NCBI GenBank assembly: GCA_018402585.1
Contig: JAGYIO010000001.1
Span: 62,001-126,000, forward strand
Reading direction: 5' to 3'
DNA length: 64,000 nucleotides
Source of the DNA: Chthoniobacterales bacterium
GTDB lineage: Bacteria > Verrucomicrobiota > Verrucomicrobiia > Chthoniobacterales > JACTMZ01
The translations under genes were made by a program, and so were the position numbers. This document shows, piece after piece, positions 33,205 through 35,862 of this stretch (the first letter of the stretch is position 1; each line of letters begins with the position of its first letter). A model generated the notes under the pieces. The model was not told where the DNA came from and ran no database searches. It was given only the letters and a program-made list of their open reading frames with translations.

Positions 33205-33270
33205 GGTAGGGACGAGCGGACCGCTCGTCCGCCTCGTTTCATCCGGGCACGCGAGCCGCGTGCCCCTACC
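33205..33270. repeat. palindromic doublet (BIME-like) with GGTAGGG...CCCTACC ends
   Basis: GGTAGGGACGAGCGGACCGCTCGTCCGCCTCGTTTCATCCGGGCACGCGAGCCGCGTGCCCCTACC; two 9-bp stems; GTAG/CTAC termini. Confidence 0.8.
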
Positions 33271-34480: not shown

Positions 34481-34585
34481 CAGGGGGCACGGGCGTCCCG
34501 CCCGTCACGACCAACCATCACAGGCGGAACGCCTGTGCACCGAGTTCCCCCCGGTAGGGCGCGGCGTCCCCAACGCGCCGGGAAC
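34481..34585. repeat. cluster of three palindromic elements
   Basis: CAGGGGGCACGGGCGTCCCGCCCGTCACGA; CACAGGCGGAACGCCTGTG; GTAGGGCGCGGCGTCCCCAACGCGCC. Confidence 0.7.
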
Positions 34586-34620: not shown

Positions 34621-35862
34621 ATGGCCACGATCATCATCCGCCCCCGCGCCCGCCTTTTCCACGGACACGATTGGGTCCACGACAACGAAGTCCTCAAGGT
34701 CACGGGCCAACCCGAGGACGGCGCCGTGGTCGGCCTGAAAGACCAACGCGACCGCTTCCTCGGCAGCGCGATCTACAACAGCCACTCGAAAATCCCCGCC
34801 CGCCGCTTCTCGCGGCAGCGCCAAGACCTCGACCCCGACTTCTTCCGCCGCCGCCTGACCATGGCGAGCGAATACCGCGACAAACTCGGACTCGACCCCC
34901 GCGCCCGCCGCGAAGTCTGGAGCGAAAGCGACGGACTCCCCGGGCTCATCCTCGACCGCTACGGCGACTGCGTCGTCCTGCAAACCCTGACCCTCGCCAT
35001 GGACCAGCGCAAAGACCTCATCGCCGACGCCGTGGCAGAAATCCTCCAACCCGCTTGTCTCCTCGAACGCAACGACGCCCCCGTGCGCCAAGCCGAAGGC
35101 CTCGAACTCCACGTCGGCCTCCTCCGCGGCACCGCCCCCGCCCCCTTCGAAGTCACCCTGGCCGGCCTGAAGTTCGGCCTTGATCTCCCCGGCGGACAAA
35201 AAACCGGCCTCTACCTCGACCAAGCCGACAACTACGCCCTCGTCGCGCAACAGGCCAAAGGCAAACGCGTTCTCGACTGCTTCAGCAACCAAGGCGGCTT
35301 TGCCTTGGCCTGCGCCCTGGCCGGCGCGAGCGAAGTCACCGCCCTCGACATCTCCGCCGAAGCCTGCGCCGCCATCGAGTCCAACGCCCGACGCAACAAT
35401 CTTTCCGTAGGTAGGGACGAGCGGCCCGCTCGTCCGCTCGAAAACGAGACGGACGGTCGCCACGGCGACCGTCCCCACCTCCATGTTATCGAAACCAACG
35501 TCTTCGACTGGCTCAAAGCCGCGACAACCCGCGGCGACAAATACGATCTCATCATCCTCGACCCCCCGAGTTTCACCCGCGACCGCGCCCGCCTGAACGA
35601 CGCCCTGCGCGGCTACAAAGAAATCCACCTCCGCGCGGCCCAACTCCTCGACAACGGCGGCCTGCTCGCCACCTTCTGCTGCAGCCACCACGTGAGCGAC
35701 GCCATGTTCCTCGAGGTCATCCGCGAGGCCATGGTCGACGCCAAAAAAACCGCCCGCCTCCGCGCCAGCTACACCCAACGCCCCGACCACCCCATCATCC
35801 TCGGCCTCCCCGAGTCTGGCTACCTCAAGGGGCATCTCTTCGAACTGGTGCCGGGGCGCTGA
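34621..35862 (+). CDS. class I SAM-dependent rRNA methyltransferase, RlmI-like, with in-frame palindromic element
   Basis: PUA-like N-terminus RARLFHGHDWVHDNEV...GQKTGLYLDQADNY...VLDCFSNQGGFALACALAGASEVTALDIS...YDLIILDPPSFTR. Confidence 0.9.
   Translation: MATIIIRPRARLFHGHDWVHDNEVLKVTGQPEDGAVVGLKDQRDRFLGSAIYNSHSKIPARRFSRQRQDLDPDFFRRRLTMASEYRDKLGLDPRARREVWSESDGLPGLILDRYGDCVVLQTLTLAMDQRKDLIADAVAEILQPACLLERNDAPVRQAEGLELHVGLLRGTAPAPFEVTLAGLKFGLDLPGGQKTGLYLDQADNYALVAQQAKGKRVLDCFSNQGGFALACALAGASEVTALDISAEACAAIESNARRNNLSVGRDERPARPLENETDGRHGDRPHLHVIETNVFDWLKAATTRGDKYDLIILDPPSFTRDRARLNDALRGYKEIHLRAAQLLDNGGLLATFCCSHHVSDAMFLEVIREAMVDAKKTARLRASYTQRPDHPIILGLPESGYLKGHLFELVPGR
35410..35479. repeat. palindromic doublet inside the RlmI-like CDS
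   Basis: GGTAGGGACGAGCGGCCCGCTCGTCCGCTCGAAAACGAGACGGACGGTCGCCACGGCGACCGTCCCCACC: three hairpins, near-identical left half to 33205..33230, terminal GGTRGGGACG inverted repeats. Confidence 0.85.

Follow-up and report, generated by a model that had tools for sequence, protein, structure and literature searches.

The window analysed here, 64,000 nucleotides long, belongs to a metagenome-assembled genome (MAG) of the order Chthoniobacterales (referred to as G000), which is 89.6% complete; all counts of repeat copies given below are lower bounds. A gene encoding an RlmI-like 23S rRNA (cytosine-C5) methyltransferase, present in a single copy in this genome, carries a palindromic element within its coding sequence (Table 1). 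The initial annotation had placed a palindromic doublet at 35407-35480, with the ORF continuing through it. The sequence is as quoted there; the element proper is slightly shorter, and the ORF is open over its whole length.

Table 1. Features of the RlmI-like locus and of the related intergenic doublet (positions in the window)
Feature	Position	Strand	Basis or remark
RlmI-like 23S rRNA (cytosine-C5) methyltransferase gene, insertion host	34621..35862	+	413 aa ORF, PUA_3 + Methyltrans_SAM
REP doublet, REPIN-like, GTAG heads outward, 70 nt	35410..35479	.	alignment, inverted repeats
Left REP unit, GGTAG-GGACGAGCGG-C-CCGCTCGTCC-G	35410..35436	+	covariance model R1, 45.9 bits in own genome
Variable linker CTCGAAAACGAGA, 13 nt	35437..35449	+	5/13 bases differ in G005
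Right REP unit, rarer GGTCGCC stem class, GGTGGGGACGGTCGCCGTGGCGACCGTCCG on minus strand	35450..35479	-	32.0 bits, covariance model
Canonical 66-nt doublet, intergenic, murA / lysine-2,3-aminomutase-like gap	33205..33270	.	gene names read from ORF translations

The left unit of the element pairs perfectly (35415-35424 with 35426-35435, 10/10 pairs), as does the right one (35451-35461 with 35464-35474, 11/11 pairs). The outer ends, 35409-35419 and 35470-35480, pair at 10 of 11 positions, in agreement with the near-identical inverted ends reported before. Folded as single-stranded DNA, the element reaches -27.3 kcal/mol (z = -4.9; none of 200 shuffles was as good). This z value and the occurrence of the element at ~50 sites in the genome rule out a chance palindrome. 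The first 27 nt were correctly described as differing by one base from the intergenic copy at 33205, and this left unit is identical in the related genome G005. The right unit possesses the stem GGACGGTCGCC, unlike that of the left unit; its stem class was also detected at C23:354284 and C32:176244 of the same genome. The head of this unit is GTGG in the window and the canonical GTAG in G005. Three consecutive hairpins had been proposed. The two REP hairpins stand, while the middle mini-hairpin, CTCG-AAAA-CGAG (35437-35448), was rejected as a part of the family since it is missing from the other copies and from the G005 orthologue; it is an incidental feature of the linker. The Rfam search with the element gave zero matches.

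BLAST of the element against its own genome yielded 47 matches, and the covariance model of the unit produced at least 70 matches to E = 1 among the first 150 candidates scored. The family size estimated with this model is at least ~65 units at ~50 sites, so that the element, whose presence elsewhere in the genome had been left for checking, is abundant there. Twenty-three doublets from this genome and its relatives could be aligned to a 66-nt consensus with a free linker between its two hairpins. This length, which is divisible by three, was also the commonest (14 of the 23). Among 21 unit variants, the stem pairs were 100% standard, with 30 double-changed cells, against no more than 42% paired in slid controls, and 5 of the 8 modelled stem pairs showed double changes. 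About 85% of the 52 listed family sites are intergenic, though the window is ~92% coding according to the same codon-usage model, a simple one with four genes recognized among the listed ORFs as its seed. Relatives lack the doublet at 33205 in the corresponding gap, which may contain another palindrome. Same-genus relatives contain from 0 to 43 detectable family matches each.

The hallmark of GTAG-REPs is a short palindrome bearing an unpaired GTAG (variants GYAG, GTRG, GTMG, GTGG) at one of its ends (Di Nocera, De Gregorio and Rocco, 2013; PMC3733652), and these repeats were described in the Planctomycetes-Verrucomicrobia group in the same paper. The window family resembles them in the head, in a stem of 6-13 bp with alternative complementary bases, in the short loop, in the inverted dimers and in the mostly intergenic location. 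Its stems are 8-11 bp long, GGTAG precedes the stem in most units, and the ~50 sites include many 66-nt doublets with heads outward. The feature in the RlmI-like gene is a dispersed GTAG-headed REP doublet with two covarying hairpins in inverted orientation.

Both Pfam domains of the RlmI-like protein, PUA_3 and Methyltrans_SAM, scored above their cutoffs. The combination of a PUA domain and a Rossmann methyltransferase with the family fold (TM 0.87 to 3c0k) characterizes it as an RlmI-type protein, with PDB relatives 3c0k, 1wxw, and 2as0. The best NCBIfam match, NF053718, reached 293.8 bits, which is below its cutoff of 575 bits, and the exact target site (C1962) was therefore left unassigned. 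The AlphaFold model of the protein has a mean pLDDT of 89.8, bearing in mind that folds rich in orthologues are modelled confidently even if the real protein is damaged. Values below 50 were obtained only for residues 267-282, located between the helix 246-258 and the strand 286-291. The predicted structure matches 3c0k and 2as0, both without the insert, with TM of 0.87-0.89. The methyltransferase fold is probably kept, and the insert would be a disordered loop between the helix and the next strand, as the initial annotation had supposed in regarding it as a tolerated loop. In class I methyltransferases, loops preceding strands are found on the side of the fold that points away from SAM. Placed in such a helix-to-strand loop, opposite to the SAM pocket, the extra residues could be translated and tolerated. 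The segment GRDERPARPLENETDGR is part of the peptide read from the insert region.

Comparison with orthologues gave the insertion a net length of 72 nt (probably 35410-35481), i.e. the doublet and 2 further bases beyond what is recognizable as such. It corresponds to codons 264-287, and the gain of about 24 residues proposed earlier is therefore exactly 24. The RlmI site is uninterrupted in nine of the ten same-genus genomes (G001-G004 and G006-G010), which show a gap of 24 codons. The tenth, G005 (86% identical), has this nucleotide element inserted at the identical codon; thus, the one orthologue with extra residues does not encode them by unrelated DNA. This genome is a separately assembled MAG from Delaware Bay (L103, JAFMJK010000007). 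In a second collection of RlmI orthologues (n = 80), only the match from L103 attains the length of the window gene (1239 nt); all other matches span 1146-1188 nt. Stem classes, orientation, and length of the insert are all identical in G000 and G005, and the flank AAT CTT TCY GTA immediately to its left is common to these two genomes only.

The family was also found in frame in four other genes. A copy in a SUI1/YciH-like gene is common to G000, G005, and G007. In G000 and G005, another copy occupies the linker that separates HisKA from the receiver (REC) domain in a protein of the SpoIIE type; the HisKA-REC-SpoIIE gene of G004 has a possible decayed trace of it. The copy at the N-terminus of lycopene cyclase (CrtY) is limited to G000, and one in the linker of a fused Y-family/DnaE2-like polymerase is present in G000, G002, and G006. 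These other internal coding copies sit in linkers or termini. With them and the nine empty RlmI sites, the earlier claim of in-frame landing in coding DNA is supported. A probable signal peptide at C32:176244 contains a solitary hairpin belonging to the rarer stem class. The copy at C12:478863, upstream of a HisI-like gene, was rejected since it probably lies upstream of the ORF start, and those at C33:83493 and C1:276534 were omitted as doubtful. The TAG of the GTAG head stops one frame per strand, the other two being almost always open. With two open frames and a commonest length divisible by three, the doublet will often leave the ORF open when it lands in a coding sequence.

Two side observations concern these host loci. 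The fused polymerase (G000:C12:102990-103988; L299, L021) combines a Y-family (IMS) polymerase with DnaE2-like PHP/DNA_pol3_alpha in one ORF, whose length is 1584 aa in G000 and 1346-1410 aa in a number of relatives. Another GTAG-headed palindrome, distinct from the family studied here (TGTAGCGGCGCCGTCCCCGGCG with its variants), is present at the lycopene cyclase N-terminus of G007 (L262) and in the murA-kamA gap of L103/L111. These are about the places used by the family in G000, which suggests that target sites may be reused.

The substitution pattern was analysed in copies shared between genomes. Comparison of the RlmI element in G000 and G005 revealed changes at 1 of 46 hairpin sites and at 8 of the remaining 24 (Fisher P = 5e-4); at the synonymous divergence of the gene, so few hairpin changes have P = 3e-7. 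The linker differs at 5/13 bases versus a third-position divergence of 0.27 in the gene. Codon changes within the insert comprise 7 nonsynonymous and 0 synonymous ones, the corresponding numbers outside the insert being 49 and 84; the Nei-Gojobori estimates are dN 0.183 and dS 0.086 for the insert, and 0.091 and 0.43 for the remainder of the gene. The SUI1 copy accumulated 0 synonymous and 5-9 nonsynonymous changes among three species, against a third-position divergence of 23-33% over the remainder of the gene. Two of its changes are compensatory, with both sides of a stem pair altered, and they convert one common family stem to another (ACACGCGG to ACCCGCGG; GGACGAG to GGCCGAG). Broken or wobble pairs occur in the HisKA copy of G005 and in the polymerase-linker copies of G002 and G006. 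From these patterns, which comprise small counts, we infer that the peptide is near neutral and little constrained, and that it is the DNA palindrome that is retained. What keeps its arms may be selection for the hairpin, quasipalindrome correction templated by the hairpin, or conversion with other copies as donors.

A 1103-aa ORF at G000:C1:318767-322076 (L213 767-4076; L269) encodes a leucyl-tRNA synthetase with an in-frame Y1/RAYT-type transposase, in the order synthetase, transposase (HUH motif MPNHVHVLF), and remaining synthetase. The same arrangement is present in G002 and, in a diverged form, in G041 from another family of the order; other genomes match the fusion only outside the transposase. 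Direct in-frame copies of a different palindrome, GGGGGCACGGGCGTCCCGCCCGTCACGACC, flank the transposase in G000 and G002, and leuS of G010 contains a close variant of this palindrome in frame without the transposase. Third positions of the insert diverged by 3-13% between G000 and G002 versus 20-47% in the flanking synthetase, with sharp edges (dS 0.093 vs 0.465). This pattern suggests that the transposase may have arrived recently, an in-frame REP being its landing site. The REP-type transposase embedded in leuS is more surprising than the RlmI insertion; a limited literature search found no paper on such a fusion, which is weak evidence of its novelty. The gap upstream of the RlmI-like gene (34482-34582 of the window) is dense with palindromes: the repeat that flanks the leuS transposase is located there at 34482-34512, an inverted relative of it near 34519-34540, and a hairpin (GGTAGGGCGCG...) at 34553.

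The doublet is similar to REPINs (2011; PMC3116915), in which two inverted REPs and a spacer form hairpins and the doublet is the usual unit. Unlike the window family, the REPIN 16-mers of Pseudomonas SBW25 are almost all extragenic, with 14 overlapping genes (PMC3116915). The survey of genus genomes, all of them incomplete MAGs, detected no RAYT gene flanked by the R1 REP, the nearest R1 being ~7 kb away (L211), and the assignment to a REPIN-RAYT system is for this reason an analogy of function. Y1_Tnp had zero matches in G001, G004, G005, G006, and G009, likewise incomplete MAGs. The 307-aa Y1 transposase at C30:93332 was rejected as the cognate RAYT since long inverted repeats, TAAATTATAGGCCTGACCCC, and not the family REP, lie at its flanks. 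The gene itself (G000:C30:93290-94211; L211) displays a TIR-flanked arrangement.

The parallel drawn earlier with Rickettsia palindromic elements holds for behaviour, i.e. in-frame insertion of palindromes into varied protein genes; it fails for family membership, because those elements, as outlined in PMC3733652, carry a terminal CGTC tag instead of GTAG, and that tag was not found in the window family. The closest precedent, described in 2013, comes from Opitutus terrae and other bacteria, whose genes contain GTAG-REP pairs (PMC3733652). O. terrae, a verrucomicrobium, is reported there to have the most intragenic GTAG repeats. More than half of the intragenic inserts are dimers or groups that encode 20-30 residues, DnaE2 recurs among the hosts, and the authors proposed that the inserts form neutral loops or linkers (PMC3733652). 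The window family agrees with that description in its location inside genes, an error-prone DnaE2-like host included, and differs in its other host genes, the likeness being judged by description. Intragenic GTAG-REP pairs are thus known since 2013; what is added here are the empty sites, orthologous copies, and substitution patterns.

Very probably, the element in the RlmI-like gene is a dispersed GTAG-headed doublet that moved in as a mobile element, in frame, and is tolerated as a loop. It would have arrived as a non-autonomous element, with movement probably proceeding through a single strand by means of a REP-associated tyrosine transposase and an IS200/IS605-like mechanism. We infer the mobility of the doublet from its dispersal and from the presence or absence of insertions among relatives. 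The origin of the window from an incomplete MAG raises the question of an assembly or binning artefact, whose probability is negligible given the same in-frame insertion with a divergent linker in the independently assembled L103/G005. The five-gene protein tree groups G000 with G001, G002, and G006, all lacking the insert, and apart from G005. Given this tree, the insert common to G000 and G005 implies two losses, exchange between lineages, or a parallel event. Independent insertions at one site would explain the patchy distribution and are consistent with site reuse at the CrtY N-terminus, where G000 has a member of this family and G007 another palindrome. They are nevertheless improbable, since the rare right-hand stem class, orientation, and length are the same in both genomes, the linkers match at 8/13 bases (P ~0.01), and the unusual flank is shared. 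A parallel event is less likely than an old insertion lost twice or an exchange between lineages. The linker divergence of 5/13, about the neutral divergence between G000 and G005, favours the old insertion; no recombination tract was picked out around the insert, with site patterns being mixed along the whole region.

Several explanations were considered for the persistence of the palindrome. The hypothesis that selection favoured the insert for a function as a methyltransferase loop finds an argument in its being in frame in two species. It was rejected as very improbable because of the excess of dN over dS (7 nonsynonymous codons against 0), the absence of the insert from most relatives, and the predicted disorder. 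Coding palindromes could also be kept for a function in the cell as RNA or DNA, such as mRNA stability, ribosome pausing, gyrase or protein binding, or as regulatory elements. Conserved arms and compensatory changes in coding copies are in line with this, and such roles have been proposed for REPs elsewhere, as mentioned in PMC3733652. We consider this explanation unlikely, if slightly less so than parallel insertion: the hosts (RlmI, SUI1, HisKA-REC-SpoIIE, CrtY, polymerase) are unrelated, the presence between sister species is patchy, and decay is under way in the HisKA and polymerase copies of certain genomes. A mutational bias without selection, where hairpin-templated correction or gene conversion keeps the arms complementary, is a serious candidate with somewhat less than an even chance. 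The compensatory changes that switch between common family stems and the linkers that diverge near the neutral rate speak in its favour, while the broken or wobble pairs in some orthologous copies imply that such correction is at least inefficient.

For the family of coding repeats as a whole, we tentatively advance a broader reading, which we regard as possible and rather doubtful. Coding REP doublets of these Verrucomicrobia might be standing translated inserts that preserve their palindromes and evolve as hairpins, through compensatory changes and free of synonymous drift, inside working, even essential genes. In-frame REPs might then become landing sites for whole REP-type transposases, as in leuS, where the complete transposase ORF lies between copies of a second REP-like family. 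Coding REP pairs represent a natural experiment, in which one mobile DNA is forced to be both a palindrome and a protein. Filled and empty sites in sister species make it possible to ask whether the hairpin is held by selection, templated correction, or conversion, and in what way proteins accommodate insertions of 20-25 residues. For annotators, GRDxRPxRP segments of 20-25 residues in these genomes carry a warning: they are repeat-derived.
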